A DNA stretch of 25,266 nt from a virus. Numbering within the stretch: position 1 is the first letter of the stretch; the number at the start of each line of letters is the position of its first letter. Shown piece by piece: positions 3,268 through 25,266 of the stretch. The stretch lies in IMG/VR virus record IMGVR_UViG_3300022752_000361, positions 1 through 25,266 of that record. The stretch is one strand, 5' to 3'. The notes beneath the pieces were generated by a model, which had not been told where the DNA came from, ran no database searches, and saw only the letters and a program-made list of their open reading frames with translations. The position numbers and the translations under genes are program-made.

Positions 3268-4050
3268 TTGTCGTCAGATCTTAAAGTTTTAGTAGAATGC
3301 GATCACAAAGTTACTGATGAGCGCATGTATCTTGATGCTGCTGACTATAAGACTATAAGATTTTCGTATCCTATTGCTAACAATAATGTGTCCGTAAGAG
3401 TCAATGGTTACTTGATAGACCCATTACACAAGTTATACGGTTTTGCTTCTAAAGATGCACAGGGTAAGTCTGTTATAAATCTTTACCCAGATGAACTTTC
3501 GGTAGAGCCTAAGAAGAAAAAATTAGTTTTTAATAGAGTATTAGGCTTAGATGATCTTATTGAGCTATCTTACACATCTCCTTTGGGCTATTGCCGCAAG
3601 TGTTTTGGTACATCATTAGTTTATGATTATCAAGTGAAGGCTAATGGATCAGGGTATTCAGAAGTTACAGGAATTTCAAAATTAAGACAAGACTGCCTAA
3701 AAGCCATTTTAACTTCTCGCGGGAGTAATGTTTTCCATAGTTGGGTAGGTACAACAGTAGACGCATTAGTCGGAAACAAGTTGAGGGCTTCTGATCTTTT
3801 TGATATACAGCAAGATATTGGAAATTCATTGAATAACTTAAAAAGGCTACAAATAAACCAATCTTCTTATCAGAAAGTATCAAACGAAGAGCTTTTACAG
3901 TCTATTGACAGCGTGCTAGTATCGCGAGACGAATACGACCCTACGTTAATTTTAATAAATGTTCAGGTAACAAGCGCTTCTGGTCAAGAGGTAGCAATAT
4001 CTCAAGCGTTTAAGTCAACGGGAACAATATCAGGTCTACTCAATGCTTAA
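3268..4050 (+). CDS. Baseplate wedge protein, gp25/W-like, with N-terminal extension
   Basis: Likely a baseplate wedge component of a contractile tail, in the family of T4 gp25 and P2 W. Residues about 136-245 follow the family plan: a helix (LRQDCLKAILTSRGSN), then FHSWVGT, which resembles the conserved 'h..fG..l' region, then helices, and finally paired strands around VLVSRDEYDPTLILINVQVT. Family members are commonly near 110-150 aa, so about 130 residues at the N-terminus are extra. That extension holds a VNG-type beta module (VSVRVNGYLIDPLHKLYGF) and a CRKC pair at Cys109/Cys112. The start is a TTG at 3268 with AGTAGG about eleven bases upstream; no ATG lies near. The last eight bases overlap the J-like gene. 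The gp25 call rests on pattern and on its place directly before J. Confidence 0.75.
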   Translation: MSSDLKVLVECDHKVTDERMYLDAADYKTIRFSYPIANNNVSVRVNGYLIDPLHKLYGFASKDAQGKSVINLYPDELSVEPKKKKLVFNRVLGLDDLIELSYTSPLGYCRKCFGTSLVYDYQVKANGSGYSEVTGISKLRQDCLKAILTSRGSNVFHSWVGTTVDALVGNKLRASDLFDIQQDIGNSLNNLKRLQINQSSYQKVSNEELLQSIDSVLVSRDEYDPTLILINVQVTSASGQEVAISQAFKSTGTISGLLNA

Positions 4051-7000: not shown

Positions 7001-8326
7001 AAAGTAGAAAACTTAGAAAAAGTCGTTGTCTTAAGGACTGGATCTAGGCAAGAGTATGCTCTAGAAGGCGCTCTTCTTACGGGAAGAAAGATAATTTTAT
7101 CACCAACAAACTTAAAGAATACTAAAATAGGCTTGTATTCAGGTGATGTTATTTTAGTAACATATTATTATGCCAGCGACTTTTCTTACCAATTAAAGCA
7201 TTCACCAGTATTGTCTATTGAGTCTGTAGACCGTCCTACCGGCAGGCTAGGAAATGAAAACTACAGATTAGATTTATCTGAGGACATACTTCGTAAAGGC
7301 AGTTCGTCTCAGTCACCAAGCTCGGTTAGGCTTATCGAAAGCAGCGGTGTGAACTTTAGTGCAGGGGTATTTGAAGAGACAGCTACACTTAATGGAACAG
7401 TTCCGTACCCATTATTGCAATACTCGATTGATCTTTCTAAACTAATTGTCTCTGGCACTTCTGGAGTATACACTTTAGGGCGTGACTTTGATATTATAGA
7501 TAAAGGGTCAAACAGTACAAAAACTACTATAGCAAGAAAAATAGGAACACGTATTGCCGATGGTGAATCCGTATCTATATCATATGTTGCTAGCGAAACT
7601 TTTATAATAAGATATACTGTAGATAATCTTATAGAATCAATTCAAACTGATTTAGAGAAAAAGGAATACGCAACCGCAGATGTTTTAGTAAAAAGAGCAA
7701 ACGTAGTCCCTATAGACATTTCTGCTGAAGTCCTTATCAATAGAGGAACCAGCCAGTCTGAGGTTGATTTAAAGATAAGAACTGCTTTAGGTAATCACTT
7801 TTCTAACTTAAGGCTAGGGGATAGCGTTTACCAATCTGATATTATTAGGATAATAGATTCAGTAGACGGAGTGTATGCTGTAACTACGCCCATAGTAAAG
7901 CTTTCCAGAGCCTATAACTCATATGTAGTAGGTGACGAGATAAAGTTGACAGGACCCAGAAGAGAAGGTTCATCACTCGTGTACAGGTTTGATAATACGT
8001 TAAGCTTTGATACAATTAACGGCGGCGGTATACTTGATTTATATACTATAAGACCCGTCGGCATGTACATAAATTCTCGTTACTTTAAAGGGGTTTCTTC
8101 TTTAAATGAAGTATTCAGTTTAAAAAATTGTTGCTACATAACAAAGAGTTACATATATATAAGCAGTCTTAGCGAATCTGATTTAGCAGAAATTTCAAAG
8201 TCAGACTCAAAGATTATTGCAAATTATTTTTCATATGAAGATAAAGGCGTTTATGATGTAAAAATTAATGCCTTTGAGTATCCTAATCTAAATAATGCCT
8301 TATTTAGTTACCGAAATAGGCAATAA
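4043..8326 (+). CDS. Giant baseplate J-like protein with fibronectin-type segments
   Basis: Probably the baseplate wedge protein equivalent to P2 J and T4 gp6, which forms the ring that links wedges and triggers sheath contraction. The J-like core lies at about residues 665-1310. It includes a stretch around PNTVFTANLDSGAVNF followed by IPVIAEKSGTSGNVDAGS and GSDQESNRSLAERSL, the usual 'A...G...Nv..G' and 'Es...l..R' signatures. The usual C-terminal part reads VVPIDISAEVLINRG and later VYQSDIIRIIDSVDGVYAV. P2 J is about 300 aa; here there are 1427. The first 650 residues look like beta-sandwich domains, with fibronectin-type III features near 112-160 (PPTGVRTEQFTDKVVVKWLN) and 520-655 (GYNIYASTEP). 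A VNG-type module is inserted near 985-1060. The start ATG overlaps the W-like gene, with AGG eight bases upstream. A 9-bp perfect inverted repeat sits at 5721-5741. Confidence 0.85.
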   Translation: MLNLSISKKYDFTSVDFSTNQSSVFLEGTFSGHQSGVHLTYEHYLLDKFQIERLVGQGTVSSVSVASGTWALGPLDLEIGLNRVKLNLTDTTTLESSTASCSITYISEKELGIQVDPPTGVRTEQFTDKVVVKWLNNSSVSYLEKSITFQSSPVTEPSTSVGSGILYSVSGGKHTPAYEYFNSNQVRASLVDRKFYNKKLIPVGNAVSTRVWDLGWTPVDGSGLNRPTNDFSKIQISGTSSSGATISGSYIIFPSALGTGSEIFATYFYNEPTYDSYTVKVEEPGLSTYGRYSVSNQSGKVFSHAQLNSDLTSVASISWSPSVLWVSGISDLVSKFAPPERVTLSFINETDYTVSSDKGLAGTKGTGVTGRTFHTPTISFTIADTGLYASGDTVVFDVISSPKMTVGTDFVYGIPGIKFQVLNTAGCAKEDTAVIKVYSYEPPVSTIPKKVSGQEVVLSDSGSVNLDTLQLTSTHESPFDRVVYIRDVDYVVVNSEDINLPTLLYRTSISSIPENTEIYVNFQVTQSESSIKGYNIYASTEPAGGLGGYSQLNDKIINVPTSRREVVTSQSSSQSVVNGTRVTTLTEKLISLNEFSYTIGREILADLPQRVNSDLTTYFVVTAVATDTKKRKEIESVFSTELVAKPLEVTSQIQEFSPRTFDEIVSDYIKNALVSQPLLDVKPTSVTRDIHIDPVANEIEKSYLMLDFLNKSQSFLTLLAIDDPDNTGSSVLDTEYKSSLQVVFGLDSLEEVQALVDSQFDKLASNVNVSRNPAEQSRGVVTLYSVNLPSSSLTVTPNTVFTANLDSGAVNFKSLSSIVIDPEEFSSYLNRETGRYEIPIPVIAEKSGTSGNVDAGSVSLTNITNFLVTNLTPMVYGSDQESNRSLAERSLNALMGVDFGTIGGYIKEVISHPGVIKVASQGAGDRFMVRDYDFFRKSNLGGKVDLYIQGNRPLTYQEEFGINFIRVEDERVTDFEPGSLTFELDYKVENLEKVVVLRTGSRQEYALEGALLTGRKIILSPTNLKNTKIGLYSGDVILVTYYYASDFSYQLKHSPVLSIESVDRPTGRLGNENYRLDLSEDILRKGSSSQSPSSVRLIESSGVNFSAGVFEETATLNGTVPYPLLQYSIDLSKLIVSGTSGVYTLGRDFDIIDKGSNSTKTTIARKIGTRIADGESVSISYVASETFIIRYTVDNLIESIQTDLEKKEYATADVLVKRANVVPIDISAEVLINRGTSQSEVDLKIRTALGNHFSNLRLGDSVYQSDIIRIIDSVDGVYAVTTPIVKLSRAYNSYVVGDEIKLTGPRREGSSLVYRFDNTLSFDTINGGGILDLYTIRPVGMYINSRYFKGVSSLNEVFSLKNCCYITKSYIYISSLSESDLAEISKSDSKIIANYFSYEDKGVYDVKINAFEYPNLNNALFSYRNRQ
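5721..5741. repeat. Perfect inverted repeat inside the J-like gene (9-bp arms)
   Basis: The arms CTACCTCTC (5721-5729) and GAGAGGTAG (5733-5741) are exact reverse complements with a three-base loop (GCA). This is the tightest hairpin I saw in the window. It lies within the second fibronectin-type segment, and no T-run follows. Confidence 0.55.
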
Positions 8327-8328
8327 TT

Positions 8329-11734: not shown

Positions 11735-14700
11735 ATGTCCACAGATTTCGGAAACGGCCTAGAGTTTCAAGTTGATAGAGAACTTCTAGCAGAAAATACT
11801 TCACTCGACTCGGTAGTCTTTCAGAAGAGAAAGCCTCCGCTTGCCGAAGAGTTTAACTTTTTTCAAGATTTGCAATCCTTACATAGAAGGAATGCTCTAA
11901 GATCACAGCTACAGAGCGGTATACTTGATTTTACGCTAGGCGGACAGTTAGCAGATGTTTTACCGACTAGAAGCTCTGTAATACCAAGCCTAGCTGCCCC
12001 TAATCAATTTGCAGTACAGAATTTTAGAGCATTAGTCGATGGGATGATTGTCGATGTAGTGGCTTCTAGGGTAAACGGAGCCTCTATTTCTTCTGGGCCG
12101 TTATCGGATAAATTTAATGTAATAAAACTCACTAATCCACCAGAAGACGGACAGGCGAGAGTAGATTTAGTATTCTTAGAAGTATGGAGAGCTCCTCTTG
12201 GGTCCTCCCCTAATTCTGTAAACAAGCCTAGCTCTACGACAATCTACAAGCACGGGAATAGGCAATATGCTGGGGCCAACCTCTCTGATCAGATTGTTGA
12301 TCCGGCTTTTGGAATTGAGACGTCAAAGAGGATTCAGGTACAGTATCAAATTAGAATTGTAGAAGGCGTGACACTAGACGGATATTTGAGTGCCTCACCC
12401 GAGGGCAATCCTGATGGCATATCTCAGGGCAGCAAGGTAAAAGCCAGAGCAGGTGCAGTCAGTGGTGCGGATACTACATACACGTTCTCCTCTCAGTGGT
12501 CAGCTACCGGCGATGCCGGTCTTTACAGAGCAGGTGACGGCAGTACTGCAGCTAAGCAGGCCCTCAAATCTTATGATGGGTACTCATACGCAATACCACT
12601 ATTTGCAGTTTGCAGAAGAACAAAGGACGTCATTAATGGCTATACTAAATCTTTGCCTAATTCTGGCAGCACTTCTATTGAGGATAATGTATCTTCAGAT
12701 AGGCCAGACGGATTATTCTTTGACGAGGTAGCCTCAAAGGACATTATTGATTTAAGGCATAAAGTACTTGTCAATAATCCAGACTTTTCTAATCTTCTGA
12801 GAAAGAACTTTAGAAAGCTTTGCGCGGGAACCCTTCGTACTAAATTAGGTGCTACTGATAATGGCGGTTTAGTCAAGGGCGTTGAGCTGATGGACGTTGA
12901 CACGATTGGTAACCCATCAGACACTACAACCAGCGTGGCGGTACCAGACGGATTTAGAAGAGTATTCTCAAACGAACAAGTACAACAAGACCTAGTAGGC
13001 TCTGTCACCTATAACGGAAGCACTCAAGCTTCTGGGGTAGTTCATTTCTATCCAACTTCCGGTCCTCTTGGTTCTGATAAAAAGATTCTTGTAGACTCCA
13101 ATAATTTAGATGCCGTGGTTGTATTTGATGAAACTGATAAAGAAACTTGGCCAACTGTACTTGTAAATGGCTCTCCTTTAGTGCTAAATGACGAAGTTGG
13201 CGATGATGGTTGGCAGTATGAGACTGGTACTTTATCTAAGGCGTATGTAATTCTTACATTAACAGATCAAGGTTTAATTCCGCCAAATGCTACAATTGAA
13301 GTACAGTTTACCACTAGATATCCTGGAGAAGGTTTAAGATTTGTTCCTTCTGACTTACATACCGTACAAAATGTAAATCCAGACTTAGTTAGTGACTTTC
13401 CTAGCACTTATGCATTTACATTAAACAATACTAACAGGAATGTTGACCTAAATCAGTACATTAAACTAGCAAGACCTTCCGATCCAGAGACAGATCATGC
13501 TGGCGACACAATTTCTGACGTTGTTACAGATTTCCCTGTAACCGGGGATTCTCTGAAAGGCGCTACTAGAGTAAGGTCTTACTTTGTAAATGGGACTTCA
13601 AATCTAAGCTACACAATACCAAATTCCATAGACGGACAGAGAGTTCTAGGTGTAATTAAGATTGCTGAAACAGCAGACAGTGGTGTGTCATTTTCTGAGT
13701 TAGATATGTCTAACAACCTATCTGCAGTAAATAAAGGCGTTAACCCTACAGATGACTGGACAGTTACTTTAAGCCTTCCTGTTGGGCAGACATCCTTTGT
13801 CGGTTGGGTACTTAGATTTGATTTAGTCCTTGCTAACATCTCAGCTTCTGTAAGCACGCTTTCTCGTGGCGTTCTTGAATTCGCAAAGGACGACTTACTT
13901 CTTATATCTTCTGTAGCAGACGGTAATACTACACAGCTATTTACTTCATTGAATAATGAGCTTATTCTAGCTCTACCAAAATATGTCTCACCTAATGGGA
14001 CAGAATACACTTACGGGTTTGTCAATGGTTTAATGCGGCGAGTTGAGCTAACAGGGGATAATGATGGTGTCATAGCTGGTATAGGCACAAATAAACTGTA
14101 CGTACAGTTTGCTGGTACAATAAATCAGTTTGATAAATTAGAAGTTGCTGTATTGAGTACAGCAACTCCAACAGCAGATGATTTAATCGACATTACCTAT
14201 ACATACCGTCCTTACCAAGGCTACGGCTCAGTTATACCATTAGGTGATTGCGAGATTATGGCAATTAATCCAGGCCTTGTTCATACTTTAGGAACAGGTC
14301 TAGCAGAGCCGCAAGCTGACCCTTCAATCGTAGGCGTGGCGCAGAATTTGCCACTACCAGGCAACGCTTCGGAGGCTATTCTTCTTGCAGACAGGTTCTC
14401 TTTGGCCTCTGATGCTACAAGCCTAAGGTCGCCTTCTGACTTCCCTAGCCCTTTGTATACTTCTGTTGAATGTGATTTAGCTAATAAATTTGATACCGCT
14501 TCATACTCTGGATCGCTTCCAAAAGTTGGTGATATTTTAAAAATTAGCGATCTTTCATCAGGTACATTGAATCCAGAAAGGGGGATAGTGGATAAAAGAT
14601 TGTCAATCTCGCTGAACGGCGAAGATGTTTCACATATTCTTGAGTTTACTACCCCATACTTGAGCGTTAAAGTAGTCCATCAAGTTGTTTGGTCAGCATT

Positions 14701-14857
14701 AGTACTTCATCCGAGCACAGGAGAGTTATTACTTGTTGTTCTAGTTAAGATGGTGGGTGCTAGCACATTTGGGAACGTTAGATCTGTTGGTGATCCTAGC
14801 TCAACAGTAGCATTCGATGTTTTTAGATTAAGCAATCGGCCACTAATTACAGTTTAG
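11735..14857 (+). CDS. Large tail protein, 1040 aa, fibre- or baseplate-associated
   Basis: Probably a virion protein at the tail tip. The N-terminus (residues 30-50, RKPPLAEEFNFFQDLQ) resembles the start of phage tail proteins that attach to the baseplate, and of the next gene's product. Around residues 320-345 is RPDGLFFDEV followed by DIIDLRHKV, a pattern I associate with large phage tail proteins. Residues 60-240 are mostly beta strand. A VNG-type module lies near residue 470 (WPTVLVNGSPLVLNDE) and others near 610 and 755 (NGTEYTYGFVNGLMRR). The C-terminal 130 residues form a separate domain ending FRLSNRPLITV. There is no signal peptide, membrane span or enzyme motif. GAGTGAGAA precedes the ATG. 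The receptor or partner cannot be read from the sequence. A 6-bp stem with a 3-base loop lies at 12506-12520. Confidence 0.75.
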   Translation: MSTDFGNGLEFQVDRELLAENTSLDSVVFQKRKPPLAEEFNFFQDLQSLHRRNALRSQLQSGILDFTLGGQLADVLPTRSSVIPSLAAPNQFAVQNFRALVDGMIVDVVASRVNGASISSGPLSDKFNVIKLTNPPEDGQARVDLVFLEVWRAPLGSSPNSVNKPSSTTIYKHGNRQYAGANLSDQIVDPAFGIETSKRIQVQYQIRIVEGVTLDGYLSASPEGNPDGISQGSKVKARAGAVSGADTTYTFSSQWSATGDAGLYRAGDGSTAAKQALKSYDGYSYAIPLFAVCRRTKDVINGYTKSLPNSGSTSIEDNVSSDRPDGLFFDEVASKDIIDLRHKVLVNNPDFSNLLRKNFRKLCAGTLRTKLGATDNGGLVKGVELMDVDTIGNPSDTTTSVAVPDGFRRVFSNEQVQQDLVGSVTYNGSTQASGVVHFYPTSGPLGSDKKILVDSNNLDAVVVFDETDKETWPTVLVNGSPLVLNDEVGDDGWQYETGTLSKAYVILTLTDQGLIPPNATIEVQFTTRYPGEGLRFVPSDLHTVQNVNPDLVSDFPSTYAFTLNNTNRNVDLNQYIKLARPSDPETDHAGDTISDVVTDFPVTGDSLKGATRVRSYFVNGTSNLSYTIPNSIDGQRVLGVIKIAETADSGVSFSELDMSNNLSAVNKGVNPTDDWTVTLSLPVGQTSFVGWVLRFDLVLANISASVSTLSRGVLEFAKDDLLLISSVADGNTTQLFTSLNNELILALPKYVSPNGTEYTYGFVNGLMRRVELTGDNDGVIAGIGTNKLYVQFAGTINQFDKLEVAVLSTATPTADDLIDITYTYRPYQGYGSVIPLGDCEIMAINPGLVHTLGTGLAEPQADPSIVGVAQNLPLPGNASEAILLADRFSLASDATSLRSPSDFPSPLYTSVECDLANKFDTASYSGSLPKVGDILKISDLSSGTLNPERGIVDKRLSISLNGEDVSHILEFTTPYLSVKVVHQVVWSALVLHPSTGELLLVVLVKMVGASTFGNVRSVGDPSSTVAFDVFRLSNRPLITV

Positions 14858-14866
14858 GCATAGCTA

Positions 14867-17800
14867 ATGAATAATATCAGCAGAGAATCTTTCGATCCAA
14901 AAAAGAATTACGAAAAGCTCCTATTCTCACAGCAAAGAGCGGTTATAGACTTTGAGCTTAATGAGCTACAAGATAGACTAAGTTATAATCAGTATCTAAG
15001 CAATAGAGTTAACTTTGGCGACGGTCCAGTAGGTGACGCATTCTTGGTTGAGCCTGTTGTCGGGGAAAATAAAATCTCCGTTAGGCCAGGTTCGTTAATA
15101 CATAAAGGTAAAATTATCTCTCTCCACGAGTCTTACTCTGTTGAACTTTCTGTTCCAGCAAGCAATAGAGAAGATATCGTTTACTTAGAATGGTGGCTAG
15201 AGGAGGTAGATTCCGACTCCGATCCTGATTTAAAACTTACACCCAGTACCCCAGAGACAGCTACAAGGTTAAAGATATTTATTCAAGTTAATGTAGCTGA
15301 AGGCGGTACAATTGGATCTTTATCAAGCGGGCATAGCTCGTTTGTGCTAGCGATGCTGTCTAGGGAATCCGGTGACACAGAAGTTTCTCCTTCTGACGTT
15401 ACCGATCTAAGGCTAAAGACTTCTTCTACTTATATAGAAAAAGGCGGATTTGTCATCAATCTTGGGTCAGGCTCATTTAGAATAGAGCCCACAAGCGGAA
15501 AGATAAACGGTCAAGACTTTAGCTTATCTAATTTAAATGAAACCTTAGTAGATGATTTAGTATACTTCATCTATGTAGATTCAGATACAAATGACTGGGC
15601 TATCACCAACTCAGAACCTACCTCAGTATCAGCTATGGTGGCAAAAGTCCAGAAAGATATTGACGGTAACGTAGTCGTCCTTGAAGACTTACGGCTTTTT
15701 TGCCCAACAGCATCTTCTGGCGGTGGAGCTAGGTCCCAAGAAGGGGGACGTATATCGATTGATTTACTATCGGCTTCATCAATCCCGGCATTTAGTCCCG
15801 TAGCAGTAGATAGCGACGGAAGAGCGGTACCCGCAAATAGCGCTATTTCCTCTAGGGTTCCTGTCGTAGGTGTATCGTTAAATCAAGTATCTTCTGGGGA
15901 ATTTGTTAGAGTTGTTGTACTTGGTACAATAACTAATAGAGATTGGTCTTTGACTCAGTCCTCTAATGTTTATCTAAACGGCACGTCTGTTTCTTCTGAT
16001 GCACCTACTACAGAAGGAGAATTTCTTCAGAAATTAGGATACGCCTTATCAGATACTTCATTACTTGTATCACCAGAGCTACAGGCCGAAGTAATTACTT
16101 CTGTTCCATCCGAAAAAGCTTTAGCTAGCCATTTCTCATCTATAGGTGTTATTCCTGAAGGCCGCGTAGTAGCCCTTACCGACACTCAGAGGGTAGTAAA
16201 ATTAGCTACATCAGAGGATGTAAACTCCCATCATCCGATTGGGGTAACAAAAGGACCACTTTTAGGAAGTTCAGGTGGTCCAGTTGTTACATTTGGTGAG
16301 ATTACAAATTCTAGCTGGAACTGGACAGTAGGAAGCCCTGTTTATTTATCATCTTCTGAGGGGAATTTAGTACAAAAACCTATTAATCAGCCTTTGACAA
16401 AAGGTGTAGCTTCCCCTATTAGGCTAGAGAGAAGAATTATATCAGGTATTCCATCTGATACAGATTTTATTATTCCTTCCACTTGGTCTGGCAGGAATGA
16501 ATTAGTATTTGAAGATGGCTTAGTACGAGTTAGGGACACAGACTACTTAAGAATAACTGTAGGTTCTACAGGTATTATCAGATTTAACTATTCAGTAAAC
16601 TCTGATGTAGAAGTAAATGCGGTCTTTTCTTTAGAGGATGGCGGTCTTTCTTTAGCGTATACATTAGAATCTGCAAGTCTTGTAGATCCTAGAATCTTTC
16701 AAGTTCCTCCAGGTGCTGGTAAAAACCAATTAGTATGGATAAATGGGATAGCTCTAAGATATGGCGCTCAGTATACTAGAACTGATGATATTATTACATT
16801 AAAGCCAGACGTAGTAGTAGCTCCAGATCGTCCAGTAGTAGCAGCATTTTCTACAGTAGAAAATGCAATGATGGATATCGTTAGGCTTCCTGGGCCTTTT
16901 CTTGACCCATTGGTAGCAGAGTCCGAAGAAAGATGGATAGCTATTCTCCCAGAAGTATCCGGAAGAAGTTATTTACTTTTCGTTGACGGTATTCTTTTAG
17001 AGCCCGGTGATTATATTGACCCAGAGGAAGAACCTAGGGACTACTTATCTAATCCAGATCAAAGAGTTATTACATTAAATATAACTATTGATCCAAATGA
17101 TCCGCCAATTCTCTCAATCGCCTACTCATCTGAACAGTTTATTGAGTCTGGAACTGTACTTTACGGGTATTCCAGTGTTCCAGAAAAAGCAGACTGCATA
17201 AATGTTGACGGCTCCAATCAAGGGACAAAATTTATTCTACCTTTAGGGGCTAATAGTAATGTAATCCCTTACGTAGATGGTTTAGCAAAAGAATTAGGAG
17301 CTTCTGCAGACCCATATGCAGGGGACTTCCATATAGATACAATTAACTACACTGATTCTATTTCCTTATATCAAGTTACGTTTAATTATGCGGTAGATGC
17401 AGATTCAGTCGCTCTATCTTACGGTGTTCGCGGTGGTGGAATGTCTTCCCCTTCTGGAACTGATGTGCAGAATTTAGCGCAAGCTCTCTTTAGCTTTAGC
17501 GATGGGTCTACAATTCCAGAAAGCAGTTGGGTGTGGCTTAACGGAAGAGCGCAAGAATTAGGCGTGGATTATGAAATTTTAGCAGCTACAAAGCAAATTC
17601 ATTTTCTTAAAGAGATATCTGAGTCTGAAACCTATAGCGTAAGGGTTTCATTCCCGTTAAACGATGAGAAAATGACAAATTTAGAGTCAGTCTTACCGTC
17701 ATCCTCTGATAATAAATCGTATTTCTTACCTGCTAGACTAAACACTGGCAAGGCTACCACTGTATCTCTAGACGGCTTAACTTTAACTTTCGGAAAGGAC

Positions 17801-20800
17801 TATTACAGGTCTTCAAACTCTGCATACTTTACCGTAAAAGACGGCCTAGTATCGCCAAACTTTGCAGAAATTTCAGAACAACCAATTGCTGTTTGGCAGC
17901 TAGACGACAATGCTAATAGTACCGTTGTAGCAGAATTAAGCGGAACCCACGACGGGCAAACAATAGATAACACATCAGACATTTCAAATACATCAGGATT
18001 AGTAAATAGATCTTTCACCGTAAATGGAAATCCAGACTCAGGAATTTTAGTTGAGTCTCTCTCTGGGGTAGATTTATCTACATTTTCAATTTGGTTTAAA
18101 CCAAATGTTGCCGTAACTTCTTCGTCCTCAGAAACAGTCCTTCTTTATGATAATAATGTTTCGTTCCTTAGCTTGGGTTCTGCAGTAGGATCGCTTTCTG
18201 GGGAAATTATTTCTCTAAAAAATACCTCAAATGGAAAAGCAACGGCAGTCTTAGCTGAAGGGGACAATGTTTCTACATTAGCCGCTGGAGTTTGGCACCA
18301 CATTTTACTGAGATATAATTCTACTGAGTATGAGATTTGGGTAAACGGTGTAAAACAAGAGACTACTGCTTCCCCGTCAGGTAATGTACCTCTTATTTCG
18401 CTATCATCGTCTGTAAGATTTGCAAGCTCAACCCTAGACAAAGCAGTTGACGGTAAAGTAGATGAAATTGCACTCTGGTCCTCCTCTGTTTCTACAGCAG
18501 ATGTGGTTAAGTTGTATAATAATAGAAATGGTGTTCATTTCTTTAGTCCAGTATCTGACGAAGTTATATTAAGAAGGCCAGACCTTTACACTACGAAACC
18601 TTCTGTTGCACTAATACGTGGTGATGGTACTTACTCTACCATTAACGTCCTAAACAGATCTGGATATGTAGACGTCGTACAAGACCCAGCAGATTTAGCG
18701 GCAGACTTTGCCTATTTAAGCGCACAAAACTATGATGTTTATGTGTTTGACTATAGCTCCAGTGCTTTATCGGAGTCAAATAGCGATTTAGCTTATGATC
18801 TATGGCAAGCTGGTCATCACGTTATTACTTTAAGTAGGTTCACTACAGATGATACCTATCCAGTCACAGCTATTTCTACCGTCGTAGGCTCATTGGACTC
18901 TGAGCCTGCATCTTTTCACGTAATAACTGATGATTTACGCGACGTAGTTGATATTGGCGGCGGTATTTCAGGAGGAAATACCGTAACTGCGTATCGTTCA
19001 GGGTTTATCCCAGTTTACCGGCTTGTAAGCAACACCAGTAAGATAACCGGGCTTATTGGGGAAAGCCCTTCTGGTGGAATCTGGCTACACGATTGCACAG
19101 GAGGCTTGGGTAGAAACTCTACCGGTATGCATTTACTACTTAATGCGATTACCTATATGTATGGTAGAGACTTGCTAAGGCTTCCGGTTCTTGCGGCAAC
19201 GTCCTTAGAAAACACTCTTTCCGGTGTCACTCAATTATACAACTATAAAGTAGGCTACGCACTTGCTCCTGACACCTTATTCGTTAATATGGAGCCAGAG
19301 TTCTCTTCCATGGTCAGCTTTGGCGGGATGGCAGACTTTGTGGCCTTGACTAGCATAGAGGGTTCAAACAATCAATTCTTTGCCCTTCCTGCAGGCGCTG
19401 GATTTTCGGAAATAATTGCAGTTGATGGAATAATACAACGACCACAGCTTGATTATGTCAGAGAAGCAGACGTAGTGAAGTTCGTCTCTGAGCAAACTGG
19501 AGTTGTATCTGCTTCCGTTTCAGTTGGCGGCAAGGGAATGTCAACGCCGCAAGTCCTAGTAAACAACTCCGGTACCTATTTACTTCCTGCATACATCGAT
19601 TCAAGTAAAAAAGTTTGGATCATTTATGACGGGTTTATTTTAGTAGAAAACGTTCATTACGTTATAACCGAACTTCAGGTCTCTCTGCTTGGTGGGCTCA
19701 GTAGCCCTACCGTAATGATGTTCTCGTATTCATTGACAGAAGAAGATATGTCTGAGTTTGAGATACTCCCCCAGACAACAGATCCTCTGGTGTATAATTT
19801 ACCTGCAAATGCTGGTGATCACTTAGTAGTTACAAAGGGATTAGTCGCTAAAAAAGTCTTACTTCTTGGTGTAGACTATGATAAGTCTGCTGGTAACACA
19901 TCAATTGTATTGACGACTTTACCCAGTCCCGCTGAATCTGTTGCAGTATCTTATTCCAGAAGAGCAATACAGCAACTTCTCCCTGTACCGGACCCAACAT
20001 CATCTAACGCAGATAGCTACTGGAGAGACCCGGTAGAGCTAGAAGAGAATTTACCATCTACAGGCAATGATATTGGCGATGTAAGGCTTGTATTTTCTGA
20101 CAAATCTTTATATACTTATACAGGTTCAGATTGGGTAAAATTATACGGTGACGGAATAGAAATTTCTGGTCTAACAGTAACCAGTGGTCTATTAGTAGGG
20201 GACAGCGCTGACATTCTTGGCAATCTAACGATTAGTGGAGACTTGGTTGTTTCCGGTTCTGTATTTGCAGATATAGGTAGCTCTTTAGATTTAAATGCCC
20301 CTCTTTCTCTTGGCTCTACGTTAAATGTATCAGGTGACACAGTACTTGAAAGCACACTTCAGGTTAGCGGCTCCGCTACGTTCTTTAGCGGGGTTTCAAT
20401 TTCAGGTTCCACAACTGTAAGCGGTCTAAATGTTCTTGGTGATGTAGATATTGTAGGAAATACTACAATTACTGGAAATCTTTCAGTTAGCGGCACGCTT
20501 TCATCTACAACCATAGATGATATTACTTCAGATGTTAGTGCCAATACTCTAAGATTAGACAGTATTGACGTAATTCTTGAGACTGAAAGTACAACTATAT
20601 TCTCTGACAACTCGTTAGTCTATGCAGATGCCAGACCAGGTATTCAAGACCCAGATTACAGAGAAGGTTGGTACTTTAAAAATGCAGGCCCAGTAGGCTC
20701 TTCACAAAATAAAATTAATTGGTACTTTGACGGCAGCCCTACACCTATCACCCTATCTGACTTTAGTGCTTATGCGATCATTACTTTTGATTCTATCGTC

Positions 20801-21538
20801 AGCGTTCCTCATCTTGCAGTGTATACTGTCCCGCAAGGTGCAGGAGATGCCGCTTTCTGGTATCGCTCTAAGGTAGTCTACCTTCCAGATGCCGGATATG
20901 TGGCTGGCGTAAAGTACCTCATGTACTTTGGCGAGGACCCACAGATAAGACCAGACCTTCCTAGACTCACGATGTCAGTCTCTCAGGCTGCAGGACCACA
21001 AGCGGGTTCAGAAATTGTACAATTTGCTTCAATAGGGTCAGATTCCGCCACTGCCATAGGAAATTGTGAATTTGTAGCCGAAGCAATTGGTTCTTTCTCA
21101 ACTTCATTCAAGAGAACTACATATCTTCGTATCAAGAAAGCTGCGCTAACAGATTTAGACACTAGACAGACGCTATCGTTTTTATTGACTGATGCCTTAA
21201 CTTCTGGTACTAAAAAATCAGCAGTTCAAGTTCCTATATCATTTATACCGGAGAAAGTTATTATTCGATCCGATAGTGCAGCAGATTTAGACATTATTAT
21301 TGATATTAATAAGGTTGACTCCAGTGGCACATCAACTTCACTATTTACACAATTACCAGGAAACGATAAAAGGCCTGTACTTCCAGCTGGAGACATTTAT
21401 GCAGAAATTACTGATTGCTTTTCCGGTTCTACGGTTTCCGATTCTTGTGTCCTCATTCTTGACTTAGACCAGATAGGCACTTCCGGAAATGAGGGTGGAA
21501 ACTTCTTGTACTTAACAATTGTTGGAACAAGGGTCTAG
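14867..21538 (+). CDS. Giant tail-fibre-like protein with LamG-like and ThuA/GATase-like domains
   Basis: At 2223 aa this is the largest product here. Residues 1-200 begin FDPKKNYEKLLFSQQ, then ELNELQ at 30-35, like phage tail proteins of the DUF4815 type; this part likely anchors to the baseplate. Residues about 525-1000 hold six loose copies of a 60-75 residue beta module ('lP...... v.vdG....lg.dY ... v.y'). Residues about 1000-1220 form a LamG/concanavalin-like domain (IAVWQLDDNANST, FSIWFKPN, AGVWHHILLRYNS, KVDEIALWS), a fold that often binds sugars. Residues about 1243-1440 look like a ThuA or glutamine-amidotransferase-like fold (YDVYVFDYSSS, AGHHVITLSR, HLLLNAITYMYG). Three more modules follow at 1495-1700. 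A Ser/Gly/Val-rich repetitive stalk spans about 1765-1880, and a 300-residue C-terminal tip ends LYLTIVGTRV. Probably a host-recognition fibre; the ligand is unknown. AGG stands eight bases before the ATG. Confidence 0.85.
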   Translation: MNNISRESFDPKKNYEKLLFSQQRAVIDFELNELQDRLSYNQYLSNRVNFGDGPVGDAFLVEPVVGENKISVRPGSLIHKGKIISLHESYSVELSVPASNREDIVYLEWWLEEVDSDSDPDLKLTPSTPETATRLKIFIQVNVAEGGTIGSLSSGHSSFVLAMLSRESGDTEVSPSDVTDLRLKTSSTYIEKGGFVINLGSGSFRIEPTSGKINGQDFSLSNLNETLVDDLVYFIYVDSDTNDWAITNSEPTSVSAMVAKVQKDIDGNVVVLEDLRLFCPTASSGGGARSQEGGRISIDLLSASSIPAFSPVAVDSDGRAVPANSAISSRVPVVGVSLNQVSSGEFVRVVVLGTITNRDWSLTQSSNVYLNGTSVSSDAPTTEGEFLQKLGYALSDTSLLVSPELQAEVITSVPSEKALASHFSSIGVIPEGRVVALTDTQRVVKLATSEDVNSHHPIGVTKGPLLGSSGGPVVTFGEITNSSWNWTVGSPVYLSSSEGNLVQKPINQPLTKGVASPIRLERRIISGIPSDTDFIIPSTWSGRNELVFEDGLVRVRDTDYLRITVGSTGIIRFNYSVNSDVEVNAVFSLEDGGLSLAYTLESASLVDPRIFQVPPGAGKNQLVWINGIALRYGAQYTRTDDIITLKPDVVVAPDRPVVAAFSTVENAMMDIVRLPGPFLDPLVAESEERWIAILPEVSGRSYLLFVDGILLEPGDYIDPEEEPRDYLSNPDQRVITLNITIDPNDPPILSIAYSSEQFIESGTVLYGYSSVPEKADCINVDGSNQGTKFILPLGANSNVIPYVDGLAKELGASADPYAGDFHIDTINYTDSISLYQVTFNYAVDADSVALSYGVRGGGMSSPSGTDVQNLAQALFSFSDGSTIPESSWVWLNGRAQELGVDYEILAATKQIHFLKEISESETYSVRVSFPLNDEKMTNLESVLPSSSDNKSYFLPARLNTGKATTVSLDGLTLTFGKDYYRSSNSAYFTVKDGLVSPNFAEISEQPIAVWQLDDNANSTVVAELSGTHDGQTIDNTSDISNTSGLVNRSFTVNGNPDSGILVESLSGVDLSTFSIWFKPNVAVTSSSSETVLLYDNNVSFLSLGSAVGSLSGEIISLKNTSNGKATAVLAEGDNVSTLAAGVWHHILLRYNSTEYEIWVNGVKQETTASPSGNVPLISLSSSVRFASSTLDKAVDGKVDEIALWSSSVSTADVVKLYNNRNGVHFFSPVSDEVILRRPDLYTTKPSVALIRGDGTYSTINVLNRSGYVDVVQDPADLAADFAYLSAQNYDVYVFDYSSSALSESNSDLAYDLWQAGHHVITLSRFTTDDTYPVTAISTVVGSLDSEPASFHVITDDLRDVVDIGGGISGGNTVTAYRSGFIPVYRLVSNTSKITGLIGESPSGGIWLHDCTGGLGRNSTGMHLLLNAITYMYGRDLLRLPVLAATSLENTLSGVTQLYNYKVGYALAPDTLFVNMEPEFSSMVSFGGMADFVALTSIEGSNNQFFALPAGAGFSEIIAVDGIIQRPQLDYVREADVVKFVSEQTGVVSASVSVGGKGMSTPQVLVNNSGTYLLPAYIDSSKKVWIIYDGFILVENVHYVITELQVSLLGGLSSPTVMMFSYSLTEEDMSEFEILPQTTDPLVYNLPANAGDHLVVTKGLVAKKVLLLGVDYDKSAGNTSIVLTTLPSPAESVAVSYSRRAIQQLLPVPDPTSSNADSYWRDPVELEENLPSTGNDIGDVRLVFSDKSLYTYTGSDWVKLYGDGIEISGLTVTSGLLVGDSADILGNLTISGDLVVSGSVFADIGSSLDLNAPLSLGSTLNVSGDTVLESTLQVSGSATFFSGVSISGSTTVSGLNVLGDVDIVGNTTITGNLSVSGTLSSTTIDDITSDVSANTLRLDSIDVILETESTTIFSDNSLVYADARPGIQDPDYREGWYFKNAGPVGSSQNKINWYFDGSPTPITLSDFSAYAIITFDSIVSVPHLAVYTVPQGAGDAAFWYRSKVVYLPDAGYVAGVKYLMYFGEDPQIRPDLPRLTMSVSQAAGPQAGSEIVQFASIGSDSATAIGNCEFVAEAIGSFSTSFKRTTYLRIKKAALTDLDTRQTLSFLLTDALTSGTKKSAVQVPISFIPEKVIIRSDSAADLDIIIDINKVDSSGTSTSLFTQLPGNDKRPVLPAGDIYAEITDCFSGSTVSDSCVLILDLDQIGTSGNEGGNFLYLTIVGTRV
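16440..17850 (+). repeat. Protein-level array of six VNG/VDG beta modules, first block
   Basis: Six diverged copies of one module are encoded in a row, each about 180-220 bases. Each starts with a strand pair near '(F/Y)..LP.G', passes a 'v(D/N)G' turn followed by 'lg.DY', and ends with a strand before 'v.y'. Examples are LVWINGIALRYGAQY, LLFVDGILLEPGDY, VIPYVDGLAKELGA and WVWLNGRAQELGVDY. The copies are too diverged to show as DNA repeats. The unit borders are approximate. Confidence 0.6.
19350..19965 (+). repeat. Protein-level array of three VDG beta modules, second block
   Basis: Three further copies of the module from 16440-17850 appear here: FALPAGAGFSEIIAVDG, YLLPAYIDSSKKVWIIYDG and YNLPANAGDHLVVTKG. 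They are separated from the first six by the LamG-like and amidotransferase-like domains. It looks as if those two domains were inserted into a once continuous array, or as if the array grew on both sides of them. Confidence 0.55.
20160..20510 (+). repeat. Repetitive beta-rich stalk of the tail fibre
   Basis: Short repeats of about 8-12 residues with alternating Val/Leu/Ile, Ser and Gly are encoded here, for example LNVSGDTVLESTLQVSGSAT and VDIVGNTTITGNLSVSG. Such patterns are typical of trimeric fibre stalks built from intertwined beta strands. No sequence-identical DNA repeat is involved. Confidence 0.6.
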
Positions 21539-21545
21539 TTATTTT

Positions 21546-21860
21546 ATGGATGATATTGAATATATGCATCCAGACGAAGACGAAAATGAAGTAAAATCAA
21601 AAAAATACCCCAAAGACTTAAACAATAGAGAAGTAGTTGAAGACCTATTCGCTATTTTAAATGAAATCTCTCAATCAAATAGCGTTAGAGAGCTTCATCT
21701 AGAGACAAAGAAGAACTTCAATAAAACTATTTTTCAAATAGGCGGGACTCTTTTTGTTGCAGGTTTGATTTGGCTAATTAGTAGTGTTGTTTCTTTAAAT
21801 CTTCAAGTTCACGATCTTCAATACAAAGTTCAAATTCTTCAGGAATTACTAAAAAAATGA
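21546..21860 (+). CDS. Small single-span membrane protein with C-terminal coiled coil
   Basis: The protein has 104 aa from the ATG at 21546. The first half is very acidic (MDDIEYMHPDEDENEV), then basic. One hydrophobic span of about 20 residues follows (IGGTLFVAGLIWLISSVVSL). The end is a heptad-like helix (LQVHDLQYKVQILQELLKK). A TTG at 21519 would add nine residues and overlap the fibre gene. I prefer the ATG because it avoids the overlap and because the TTG has no ribosome site close by. No family is recognised. The layout, a soluble helix, one span and a short coiled coil, recalls small phage lysis accessory proteins such as XhlA in general plan only. It could also be a membrane partner of the kinase encoded two genes on. 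Its stop overlaps the receiver start (ATGA), so the two are probably co-translated. Confidence 0.7.
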   Translation: MDDIEYMHPDEDENEVKSKKYPKDLNNREVVEDLFAILNEISQSNSVRELHLETKKNFNKTIFQIGGTLFVAGLIWLISSVVSLNLQVHDLQYKVQILQELLKK

Positions 21861-22231
21861 AGAAGCTACTTATAGTTGACGACAACACTAGCGTAACTCT
21901 AGTTTTAAGCCGTATATTCTCTGTCAAGTTTCCGAACATAGAAGTTTTTTGCTTTAATAAAAAATCAGCCGGTATTGAAGCATTAAATTGGTTACAGGCT
22001 AATAAACCAGATTATGCAATACTTGACCTTGTTATTAATGGAGTAAATGGTAACAATCTTTATGACGCAATGATCTCAAAGGGGTACGATACAAAAATTG
22101 TATTTTTAACTGGTTGCTCTGATTCTGATTCTAAGTTTCAAAAGTTTAAAAAATCATACCCAAGTCTTCCAATTCTAAGAAAAGTCGCCTCTGTTACTAG
22201 CATTCTAGATTCATTAGGTTTAAATGAGTGA
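21857..22231 (+). CDS. Stand-alone response regulator receiver domain (CheY/Spo0F type)
   Basis: A 124-aa receiver domain that fills the whole protein. All expected residues are present: the acidic pair Asp8-Asp9 in LLIVDDN, the phosphate-accepting Asp57 in YAILDLVING, Thr85 in IVFLTG, and Lys109 in PILRKV. The alternating strand/helix order is that of the family. There is no DNA-binding or enzymatic output domain, so it should pass its phosphate on or act by binding another protein, as CheY and Spo0F do. The ATG overlaps the upstream stop by four bases, and its own end overlaps the kinase start by eight (ATGAGTGA). This strongly suggests that receiver and kinase work as a pair. In a phage structural region this is unusual; its target cannot be read from the sequence. 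Confidence 0.93.
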   Translation: MKKLLIVDDNTSVTLVLSRIFSVKFPNIEVFCFNKKSAGIEALNWLQANKPDYAILDLVINGVNGNNLYDAMISKGYDTKIVFLTGCSDSDSKFQKFKKSYPSLPILRKVASVTSILDSLGLNE

Positions 22232-23258
22232 CTTATCTCTTATACCTATTGAAGTAAATTATTTTACGCAAGATTTAAAAAAAGTCGTACTTCATCAGGG
22301 TGAGTCGTTTGTACCTAGTCCCTTTATGTGCGAGGGGATAAAAATTGGAATATGTTTTGACCTTCCAGAGCAAAGTGATAATGTTAATTTTGTCACTAAT
22401 TGCATAGCCAGGAAAGTATTACTTACCGGAAAGCAAGTAGAGTCTGTACAGACTTATATAGACCCACTTACCGGCATTAAAAGAATTTTCAAGAGGATAG
22501 GCATCCCTGCCCCATTGGGTGGCTGCTTTGAGCTTAGGTATGAAATAAATACTGAGGTCTTAAGCAACAAGTTTAATTTTGATTCAAATATGCAAGACAA
22601 CTTTCGATTAATTGCTGCAGGAATAAACCATGAACTTCGTAGCCCCCTTCAGGCCATTTCAATGTATGCAGACATAATTGAAGAAGGAGTAGGGGACGTA
22701 ACAGAAGTAGCCTCTTTTGTAAAGGAAGAGATTAAATCTATAACCGGAATTTTAGATACTTTAGGGAGATTTAATAGCAATCAAAAGAATAATTTAGAGT
22801 ATGACAGTTTAGATAAAATTATAAAAACAACTTGGGATACCGTATCTCTTACGATGGTCCCATCATGTCATAGTTTAGATGTAAAGTTTAAAGTCCAGAG
22901 AGGCTTTAGTAAAATTGTACCTAATATACCTAAATCAGAACTACAGCAGGTACTTACGAATATATTTAGAAATTCTATCGAGTCTTTGGATAAAGAAAAG
23001 AGTTTAATTGAGGTAAAATTAGCCCATAAAACTGATAAATTCTTTTCATTTTATATCCGAGACAACGGATGCGGAATACCTAAATCTAAGATAAAAAATA
23101 TCTTTACCCCTTTTGTCTCCTCAAAATCAGGAAGCCAAGGATTGGGGTTGACGATATGTAGGTATTTTATATCACAGAGAGGTGGGACTATTATGGTTCT
23201 GTCTGAAGAAGGAAAGTCTACAGACGTTATTATTTCTTTACCTATAAAATGTGATTAA
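22224..23258 (+). CDS. Soluble sensor histidine kinase
   Basis: A 344-aa kinase with a full catalytic core. The H-box is INHELRSPLQAI with His136, in a dimerisation helix pair at about 120-190. The N-box is LTNIFRNSIESL with Asn250. The G1 box is RDNGCGIP (Asp280, Gly282, Gly284), the F-box is IFTPF, and the G2 box is GSQGLGLTICR. The expected reaction is ATP-dependent phosphorylation of His136 and transfer to Asp57 of the receiver encoded just upstream. Residues 1-115 are the likely sensor. No membrane span is present, and the end of this region (FKRIGIPAPLGGCFELRYEI) faintly resembles the last strands of a PAS domain, so it may sense a soluble signal or bind a protein. The ATG lies within the 8-base overlap with the receiver gene, with AGG five bases upstream. 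Nothing essential is missing, so it should be active. Confidence 0.93.
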   Translation: MSDLSLIPIEVNYFTQDLKKVVLHQGESFVPSPFMCEGIKIGICFDLPEQSDNVNFVTNCIARKVLLTGKQVESVQTYIDPLTGIKRIFKRIGIPAPLGGCFELRYEINTEVLSNKFNFDSNMQDNFRLIAAGINHELRSPLQAISMYADIIEEGVGDVTEVASFVKEEIKSITGILDTLGRFNSNQKNNLEYDSLDKIIKTTWDTVSLTMVPSCHSLDVKFKVQRGFSKIVPNIPKSELQQVLTNIFRNSIESLDKEKSLIEVKLAHKTDKFFSFYIRDNGCGIPKSKIKNIFTPFVSSKSGSQGLGLTICRYFISQRGGTIMVLSEEGKSTDVIISLPIKCD

Positions 23259-23259
23259 A

Positions 23260-23622
23260 ATGAAAAAGTTTCTACAGGACATATTAAAAGAAGCCGACCA
23301 AAATAACGAGTACCGGTACTCTTGGGCTAGGTTACAGTCATTCATATCATTCTTTTATTTTCTTGTGTTGTACACAAAACAGACTTGGGGTAACAACACA
23401 ATACCGGACATACCTGACGGGTGGATATTTTTAATAGGTGTATCTAGCGCTACTTATCTTGTGGCAAAGTATACGAATAATAAAGTCTCTGGCTTTAATT
23501 ATTCTAATAATTCTGTATACAATCCACCGCATGCATCTGTAAATAATTTAAATGATTCAGTCATAATACCAGGCCCAGACGGACCATCAGCTTTATCAGT
23601 AAAGAAAAATGATAATGATTAA
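23260..23622 (+). CDS. Two-span membrane protein, holin-like
   Basis: A 120-aa protein from the ATG at 23260. A GTG nine bases upstream is possible but would overlap the kinase gene. After a charged start comes the pattern YRYSWARLQSF, then a hydrophobic helix (ISFFYFLVLYT), a short loop with IPDIPDGW, a second hydrophobic helix (IFLIGVSSATYLVAKYT), and a polar tail of about 45 residues rich in Asn and Pro. The 'S..R.Q ... iP ... l.G.S...Y...K' plan occurs in small phage and bacterial membrane proteins often listed as holin-like. The size, two spans and place before another membrane-anchored protein fit a holin that would open the inner membrane at lysis. This is inference, and no endolysin lies in the window to support it. 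Confidence 0.6.
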   Translation: MKKFLQDILKEADQNNEYRYSWARLQSFISFFYFLVLYTKQTWGNNTIPDIPDGWIFLIGVSSATYLVAKYTNNKVSGFNYSNNSVYNPPHASVNNLNDSVIIPGPDGPSALSVKKNDND

Positions 23623-24331
23623 TTTTATAATTAAAAACTTCAAAAAAATAGTAATAGTAGCAGCTTCTTTGGTATTAATTAGCTTAATCTATCAATTAAT
23701 ACCAAAAAGCCAGTCATCGACGAAAGTAGCAGAATCTAATAAAAAAATAGAGTTATCTGAGGAGTCTTCTTTATCTATTGATACAAAAGTTTCCACAAAC
23801 TCTGTGTCTTCTGTGTCTTCTTCTGAATTATCAGAATCTTTACAAATAAAAACTATCACCAAAGAAAAGTTTAGACACGACGGTTCGATTGAAAGTCGAG
23901 AAGTAGAGAGATTAGAGACAAGCAAAGTAAGAAACACATCATTATCCCGTAAAGCTACAGAAAGCGTTGTATTGGACAGAAAAGAGATTTTTGAATCTTC
24001 TTCAAGTGTCGATTTGGCTGAGAACTCTTCAACTTCTGAGAAGGTTATACTTAGCGAAAGAAGCAGATCAAGTATTGGGCCAGCCGCTTGGGTAACCATT
24101 GAGGGAACATACGCCGGGTTTAGCTATAAAGTAGTTGACGCAAGCATTCTGCGCAGCAACCTTTCTCTTGTCGTTGGTACAAGGTTAGACTCTTTACCTG
24201 ATTTAGATTTAGCAGTAGGAGGCATGGTGTCCAGCTCAGTAGGTGGCGGGCTTGAGCTAGGTGTGGTCGGAGCTGTCAAAGTACCAGTGCCAGACGCCCA
24301 CATAGGCATCGGCATCTCTTACCAGTTTTGA
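23609..24331 (+). CDS. Membrane-anchored Ser/Glu-rich protein with beta-rich C-terminus
   Basis: A 240-aa protein of unknown family. An N-terminal hydrophobic helix (IVIVAASLVLISLIYQLI) preceded by Lys residues should act as an uncleaved anchor or signal. Residues 35-150 are low-complexity and polar, rich in Ser, Glu and Lys, and probably extended. Residues 155-240 are beta-rich with alternating pattern and end GIGISYQF. The final Phe and the alternating strand before it recall outer-membrane beta proteins. Anchor, long spacer and a C-terminal part that could touch the outer membrane fit a spanin-like role beside a holin, but no spanin family is recognised. Starts at 23609 and 23615 (ATG ATA ATG) are both possible; the first overlaps the previous gene by 14 bases. 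It is the last gene of the string that starts at the membrane protein at 21546. Confidence 0.65.
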   Translation: MIMINFIIKNFKKIVIVAASLVLISLIYQLIPKSQSSTKVAESNKKIELSEESSLSIDTKVSTNSVSSVSSSELSESLQIKTITKEKFRHDGSIESREVERLETSKVRNTSLSRKATESVVLDRKEIFESSSSVDLAENSSTSEKVILSERSRSSIGPAAWVTIEGTYAGFSYKVVDASILRSNLSLVVGTRLDSLPDLDLAVGGMVSSSVGGGLELGVVGAVKVPVPDAHIGIGISYQF

Positions 24332-24358: not shown

Positions 24359-25266
24359 ATGGAAAGCCAAGAAATTCCAGACGAGCAGCAGAGGTTCTTT
24401 GCCGCCGTCGAAAAATTGAAATCCAGCAGGGACTTCAGGCTCTTTGACTCGCCTTACCAAAGTCCTGACGTCACGCTACGGCCCTACCAGCATGTAGGAG
24501 TTGCATATATGTTGGCGGTACCGAGGGCCATACTCGGTGACCATACAGGCTTAGGTAAGACCGGTCAATCCATCTCAACCTTTATTCGTCTTCTTGAGAA
24601 GAATCCAAATCTCAAGTGCATTATCGTGACGATCAAAAGCTCCCTTTACCAGTGGGCTTCAGAGATTAGAAAGTTTACCCAAGGAATTAAAGCTTTTGCC
24701 TTGGATGCAGATTCTTTCGAAGATAGTGAAGGCAATCGTTACAAAAAGTCATCTAAAGAATCGCCAGCAGATTTTAGACAAAAAGCGTTTGATTTATTTA
24801 AACAGCAAGATGCGCACCTGATTATTACAGGGTATTCTATGCTTGTTTCTGAGAATCAAAATCTCATGGACATAGGGGATGAGTATATTGTTTTCTTTGA
24901 TGAATGTACTCAATTCAAGACGTGGAAACCTGAAATTAAATATCGAGATGAGAATAGGCTAAGGGCTCAGTCCGGTAAAAAAGCATATCTTTCAGTTTTC
25001 CAAGCCGCCTGTAATGTATCTGCGAGGGCGCAGAGGGCATATGGCCTTACCGCTACGCCAATCAAGAACAGGCTAGAAGAAGCATTTGCTTTGTACAAAG
25101 TAATTAAGCCAGAGCTTTTCCCTAATGTCACATGGTTTAGAAGCAATTTCTGTGTCTATAAAGAAATGATTATGAGAGGGAGAAGAATACCTCAACTTGT
25201 TCAATATAAGAACTTGGACAGATTTGCTGAATTAATTAAACCTTTTTACATAGGAAGGTCAAAGAG
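24359..25266 (+). CDS. SNF2-family helicase/ATPase, 3' end cut by window edge
   Basis: The frame runs from ATG at 24359 to the window edge, giving 302 residues. An in-frame TAG stands directly before the ATG and GGAG three bases before that, so the start is well set. Motifs of the SNF2/superfamily 2 ATPase core appear in order: Q-like LRPYQHVGVAYML (40-52), Walker A GDHTGLGKT (60-68, Lys67), motif Ia IIVTIKSSLYQWA, motif II FFDECT (Asp181-Glu182), and motif III YGLTATPIKN (228-237). Motif II is usually DEAH or a close variant in this family; here the last two residues are Cys-Thr. The second RecA-like lobe lies beyond the edge. Phage members are thought to act in replication, recombination or transcription; the role here is unknown. 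It stands apart from the structural genes by a 27-bp gap and probably begins a different functional block. Confidence 0.93.
   Translation, partial: MESQEIPDEQQRFFAAVEKLKSSRDFRLFDSPYQSPDVTLRPYQHVGVAYMLAVPRAILGDHTGLGKTGQSISTFIRLLEKNPNLKCIIVTIKSSLYQWASEIRKFTQGIKAFALDADSFEDSEGNRYKKSSKESPADFRQKAFDLFKQQDAHLIITGYSMLVSENQNLMDIGDEYIVFFDECTQFKTWKPEIKYRDENRLRAQSGKKAYLSVFQAACNVSARAQRAYGLTATPIKNRLEEAFALYKVIKPELFPNVTWFRSNFCVYKEMIMRGRRIPQLVQYKNLDRFAELIKPFYIGRSK

Follow-up and report, generated by a model that had tools for sequence, protein, structure and literature searches.

The closest described counterparts of the locus analysed here are the orthodox two-component systems with single-domain receivers (Spo0F, CheY and DivK types), with which it shares its domains, its catalytic motifs and the arrangement of kinase and receiver in adjacent, coupled genes. 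It departs from them in being phage-borne, in lying within a tail/membrane locus and in encoding a receiver of a family marked by the motifs DL[IV]ING and FLTGC. Phage-encoded kinases and receivers are already known and have been reported singly. One example is the agrDBC quorum-sensing locus of phiCDHM1, proposed to be host-acquired, which encodes the AgrC histidine kinase without a response regulator (PMC3901668); the two loci have a phage histidine kinase in common, whereas the present one holds a conserved pair of kinase and receiver in a membrane/lysis-like setting. Other examples are the CheY-like gene of Alteromonas phage V22 (PMC7289586) and the histidine kinases that precede curli genes in pelagiphages (PMC9599517), which are classed as auxiliary metabolic genes; the presence of phage-encoded signalling domains is common to all, and the excerpts consulted mention no lysis cassette with a kinase and its receiver inside. 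The cRec domains of jumbo phages, in turn, are described as never associated with histidine kinases and as tied to NAD/ADP-ribose enzymes (PMC7824862; Iyer et al., 2021). Assignment of the present receiver to this group was rejected: it adjoins a histidine kinase in four phages, and no NAD/ADP-ribose enzyme was recognised in the cassette.

With regard to lysis, XhlA accompanies holins in phage cassettes, and lysis by PBSX requires XhlA (PMC10630273). The XhlA-XhlB cassettes of PBSX and enterococcal phages bring a coiled-coil protein and a small membrane protein together in one cassette, as does the locus of the pair; a two-component pair inside such a cassette was not found in the papers searched, however, and the corresponding gene of the DNA analysed here, g10, does not match the XhlA family. 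More generally, the search for precedents, which covered the open literature, found no report of a conserved phage kinase-receiver pair in a lysis cassette. Most matches of the kinase in phage databases (small unannotated 'Listeria/Enterococcus/Salmonella phage' records) look like host DNA and were not used as precedents. MW495066.1 and MW462191.1, both labelled phages, may be bacterial contigs and were excluded for the bacterial housekeeping genes that flank their kinase genes (gatA, coaE, aspS; aminopeptidase N, glutamine synthetase adenylyltransferase). The 'Receiver domain' of the N4 lysis paper was also set aside, being a pinholin region and not a response-regulator receiver.

The DNA analysed here (the window) is a virus record of 25,266 bases on a single contig, with all listed genes on the plus strand. 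It is a genome fragment of a phage that belongs to a large clade related to phage G and LR745208. Through the baseplate J-like protein g5 and through g4, its distant relatives include LR745208 (a 485-kb metagenomic phage), Tunturiibacter phage Tunturi_5 and Bacillus phage G. The clade was defined by g5, which has 330 relatives in IMG/VR. Single-sequence IMG/VR scans with the kinase, the receiver and baseplate J gave no matches, and alignments were required; profile scans recovered 46, then 330 relatives, and no relative retained exceeds 35% identity. The genes that matter for the argument are the following.

4043..8326, plus strand: g5, baseplate J-like protein (phrog_6 baseplate wedge, 1.2e-31)
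11735..14857, plus strand: g8, tail protein, syntenic marker upstream of the cassette (28-34% identity to the relatives G054, G096 and G097, introduced below)
14867..21538, plus strand: g9, giant fibre-like protein of 2223 aa, lying after g8 and before the cassette
21546..21860, plus strand: g10, 104 aa, with a cytoplasmic helical part and one transmembrane (TM) segment by hydropathy
21857..22231, plus strand: RR, stand-alone receiver of 124 aa (Pfam PF00072, 2.5e-10)
22224..23258, plus strand: HK, soluble histidine kinase of 344 aa (PF00512, 1.6e-6; PF02518, 1.4e-20)
23260..23622, plus strand: g13, 120 aa, with hydrophobic segments; only its size is holin-like
23609..24331, plus strand: g14, with an N-terminal TM segment, a low-complexity middle and the C-terminus GISYQF
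24359..25264, plus strand: g15, SNF2-type helicase, truncated where the contig ends, syntenic marker downstream (Pfam SNF2, 1.1e-21)

An earlier note, made from the letters of the window, had placed the pair in a tail/lysis gene string. The tail part of this description stands: g1 to g8 are tail genes, of which g4 and g5 have baseplate hits in PHROGs, g7 matches baseplate/virion families, and g4 to g8 have homologues in Bacillus phage G (g8 in LR745208 as well). The lysis part does not follow from the genes of the window and comes from the relatives.

RR matches the Pfam Response_reg family at E=2.5e-10 with 40.9 bits (cut-off 30.2), has Spo0F, CheY and DivK types among its matches, and has Asp8, Asp9, Asp57, Thr85 and Lys109 in place. 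Its predicted fold matches solved receivers in an AlphaFold model (pLDDT 71) that is good to about residue 90 and weak past it, and its length of 124 aa leaves no space for an output domain. The combination of a receiver fold, an acidic pocket, a phospho-Asp and a Thr with no output domain is that of a single-domain response regulator. Asp57 and Thr85 had been named in the earlier note and are borne out; Lys109, named with them, is present, but either it or Lys98 aligns as the switch lysine, in the part where the model is weak. The assignment of Lys109 is uncertain because RR is shorter than the receivers of its relatives in that part, by about 9 residues ahead of the switch-lysine point.

HK matches HATPase_c (E=1.4e-20) and HisKA (E=1.6e-6), each above the Pfam cut-off, and its H, N, G1, F and G2 boxes are intact (H136 in HELR, N246/N250, DNGCG at 280, FTPF at 294 and GLGL at 306, in this order). 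The phosphoacceptor His together with the other four boxes is what characterises orthodox HisKA/HATPase_c kinases, and the core of HK resembles ordinary bacterial kinases (ZraS/AtoS/WalK-like). The motifs are kept in three orthologues, in two of which G2 drifts to GLGS/GLGG. No TM segment was found in HK by a hydropathy scan. The fold of its N-terminal region is unassigned by Pfam and the AlphaFold model of HK is poor (pLDDT 36); a PAS-like sensor was considered for this region and is unsupported, since Pfam detects a PAS domain neither in HK nor in its G054 orthologue, the only one found being in the kinase of another clade member, G071. The central claim of the earlier note, a matched kinase-receiver pair with intact motifs, therefore holds, both domains exceeding their Pfam cut-offs and the catalytic residues being located. 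Its statement that no regulator gene lies nearby is correct within the 25 kb of the window, and action of the receiver on a protein is likely, given that it has no output domain. None of RR, HK, g10, g13 and g14 matched the defence models of PADLOC-DB.

The pair is tightly packed with its neighbours. The overlap of eight bases between RR and HK, already reported in the earlier note, is confirmed (RR ends at 22231 and HK starts at 22224); g10 overlaps RR by 4 bases, g13 overlaps g14 by 14 bases, and a single base separates the HK stop from g13. Because of these overlaps and this one-base gap, g10, RR, HK, g13 and g14 probably form one translationally coupled unit. A scan for promoters and terminators yielded nothing above shuffled sequences. 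The G+C content of g10, RR, HK and g13 (21546-23622) is 0.31-0.35, against 0.35-0.42 in most tail genes and the helicase.

Three further clade contigs, derived from other metagenomes and each carrying the clade baseplate J, have orthologues of RR and HK at this position.

G054: IMGVR_UViG_3300012271_000005, 125 kb (L154/L162)
G096: IMGVR_UViG_3300021978_000001, 437 kb (L163)
G097: IMGVR_UViG_3300028377_000005, 116 kb (L165)

In these relatives the g8 tail protein is followed by a short gene (about 55 aa in G054 and G096, unconfirmed in G097), a coiled-coil protein with one TM segment, RR (126-128 aa) and HK (375-389 aa), and then by a small membrane protein, a TM protein, a signal-peptide protein (...SLSFN), one or more small genes and the SNF2 helicase. 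A giant fibre gene of the g9 type between g8 and g10 is found in the window only and is absent at that site in the relatives. By position, g10 is the counterpart of the relatives' coiled-coil/holin-like TM gene, g13 that of the small membrane protein encoded downstream of HK, and g14 that of their envelope proteins. Searches of g10, g13 and g14 against protein families, lysis families included, gave no match, and profile comparison with the relatives' counterparts gave no significant one; the link between these genes of the window and the relatives' membrane genes is one of position and topology only. No endolysin was recognised in the 25-kb window or in the cassettes of G054, G096 and G097.

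Few clade members carry the pair. A survey of 95 IMG/VR clade records, nearly all of them fragments, and of the three named relatives, screened for receiver and HATPase domains and then searched further with profiles built from the pair itself, found it in 3 of the 95 records and in none of the named relatives. At the matching site LR745208 has a g8 paralogue and an SNF2 helicase, between which the pair is replaced by a large gene that resembles a helicase and runs on the opposite strand. The pair is therefore not needed for lysis as such.

In G097, family matches of the coiled-coil TM protein are to the phrog_689 holins (6e-7) and to the phrog_1193 hemolysin/XhlA family (3.7e-4); in G054 and G096 the corresponding matches are weak, so that the match is clear in one relative of three, and the small protein after HK reaches a holin family at 0.045 only. 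Similarity between coiled coils or between TM segments is readily overcalled. Of the recurrence beside tail-fibre and holin genes, which the earlier note had proposed to look for, a place downstream of the g8 tail gene is established in G054, G096 and G097, and a neighbour with a clear holin-family match is seen in G097 only. The N-terminal 50 aa of the relatives' coiled-coil TM protein (L165:7526-7975 in G097) contain the stretch ER..R.EER...E.S.RKTRDDQ.FK, conserved in all three, which is a candidate binding site for the receiver.

Other kinase-receiver pairs of the clade, which look unrelated to the syntenic one, have similar neighbours. In G034 a membrane HK, which gave no HisKA match, is followed by an RR and a coiled-coil membrane protein. 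In G071, a 452-kb contig, one clean open reading frame (L155:7397-8278, minus strand) encodes a receiver (residues 1-110) continued by a coiled coil and, at the C-terminus, a TM segment; a PAS-HisKA kinase and another receiver come next. Since no homology was detected between the coiled-coil segments of these two phages and those of the syntenic group, the argument from the G071 fusion is architectural. Solitary receivers of the clade (in G052, in G061/G090, in G064, and beside RNase HII in G090 and G071) are without a coiled-coil TM neighbour: such a neighbour was seen for none of the four solitary receiver kinds versus all three independent HK-paired lineages (Fisher p ~0.03), in loci where small genes with a TM segment make up about 7% of genes. 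In two megaphages (L158:4806-5822 and L161:5525-6598) the solitary receiver lies directly 3' of a gene resembling RNase HII and has no adjoining kinase. Phage G has gp214 and gp215 (L004:32885-34266) at a comparable site downstream of its g8 homologue, a sensor and holin-like pair; the two-TM protein has a weak dCache match (1.6e-4, below the cut-off) and no kinase, and the neighbouring coiled-coil TM protein has a weak holin match.

Because of the holin/XhlA match in G097, the architectures of G034 and G071, the contrast with solitary receivers and the site in phage G, a membrane protein is the likely output of the receiver and lysis the likely process. We see about an even chance that the pair is a conserved, phage-owned two-component switch that controls a neighbouring holin-type membrane protein and couples lysis timing to host or infection state. 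A cytoplasmic cue would be sensed through the N-terminal region of HK, which would autophosphorylate at His136 and pass the phosphate to Asp57 of RR. As RR lacks any output domain for DNA binding or catalysis, its phosphorylated form would act by binding, the likeliest target being the membrane protein of the upstream gene (g10, coiled-coil and XhlA/holin-like in the relatives) or g13; this binding would hold back or release a holin-type complex and so shift the time of membrane permeabilisation. A more specific version, in which the pair directly gates the coiled-coil holin-type protein, the G071 receiver forms part of the membrane protein and phosphorylation decides when lysis occurs, is somewhat less probable and is put forward tentatively. 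Lysis timing, one of the uses suggested in the earlier note, thus gains support from the holin/XhlA match of a relative and from the receiver-coiled coil-TM fusion of G071, while g10, g13 and g14 of the window match no lysis family.

Signal-responsive lysis timing is understood in molecular detail for few cases, e.g., T4 lysis inhibition. A kinase-receiver pair long retained in a holin-type cassette would offer a plain and testable route to it, in which the kinase senses, the receiver stores the phosphate and the membrane protein reads it. The chemistry would be that of ordinary two-component systems; what appears to be new is its owner, its place and its likely output. If this reading is correct, the locus is a virus-owned two-component system with a non-transcriptional output, that output being a holin, and hence a post-translational, signal-driven lysis clock, and it would provide an entry to the lysis systems of phage-G-like megaphages.

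The same pair could instead rewire a host phosphorelay, HK phosphorylating a host regulator (for instance of a cell-cycle, stress or envelope system) or RR drawing phosphate from it, and so keep the host productive late in infection, in which case the membrane genes would be mere neighbours. A receiver without an output domain that resembles relay receivers (Spo0F, CheY and DivK types) and a kinase core like that of ordinary bacterial kinases would suit such a role, and the regulator-less AgrC kinase of phiCDHM1, proposed to signal through the host, sets a precedent (PMC3901668). An effector of this kind, however, would not need coiled-coil membrane flanks in every HK-paired lineage, nor a cognate receiver of its own; moreover, position, pair and neighbours have all been kept over deep divergence, and the G071 receiver carries a membrane anchor within the same protein. 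We consider host rewiring unlikely.

Still less probable, in our view, is that the pair governs another envelope function, such as superinfection exclusion or envelope remodelling, through membrane effectors that are not holins. The sole family match of the neighbouring membrane protein, which is to lysis families, argues against it, whereas the cassette does contain several membrane or envelope proteins without a known family, no endolysin was recognised there, and the membrane genes of the window match no holin.

Among G054, G096 and G097, identities are 53-71% for g8, 56% for the helicase, 48-65% for RR and 42-55% for HK; between the window and these relatives they are 28-34% for g8, 31% for the helicase (G054 and G097), 30-32% for RR and 24-27% for HK. 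The identities of RR and HK therefore vary in step with those of the flanking g8 and helicase, as expected if the pair was inherited together with its neighbours. pN is far below a saturated pS, with a ratio of 0.34-0.44 for RR against 0.37 for the helicase, which indicates that the pair is under purifying selection, in RR about as strong as in the helicase. Given this divergence in step with the flanking genes and this selection, the pair is, on the sequence comparisons, an old and long-held phage locus and not a chimera.

These data also bear on the idea that the pair is a captured bacterial two-component system, a passenger or auxiliary function with no site-specific role. The low G+C at 21546-23619 (0.31-0.35 against 0.38 for the window overall) and the absence of the pair from most clade members would be in keeping with capture, but in the three relatives the G+C of the cassette equals that of the surrounding locus, the dip being confined to the window. 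A search of 84,980 species genomes with receiver-family patterns, whose reach is that of the patterns, found no close bacterial relative, and a passenger would hardly be expected at the same place in four phages with 30-65% receiver identity, diverging in step with its flanks under purifying selection. Such an origin is very improbable and was rejected by the synteny in the three other contigs. An assembly chimera or bacterial insertion, for which it can be said that the window phage is represented by a single contig, has a negligible probability, as the coupled genes run uninterrupted on one strand and the same order recurs in three contigs from other metagenomes. The test named in the earlier note, whether the region is chimeric or the pair unconserved in related phages, has in this way come out in favour of the pair.

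Among the flanking genes of the clade, the SNF2 helicase of G096 (L163:10713-14891) is much longer than its orthologues and is suspected to contain an intein-like insertion, as are two overlong helicase-like genes of LR745208 (L175:1555-4548 and 4642-9867).
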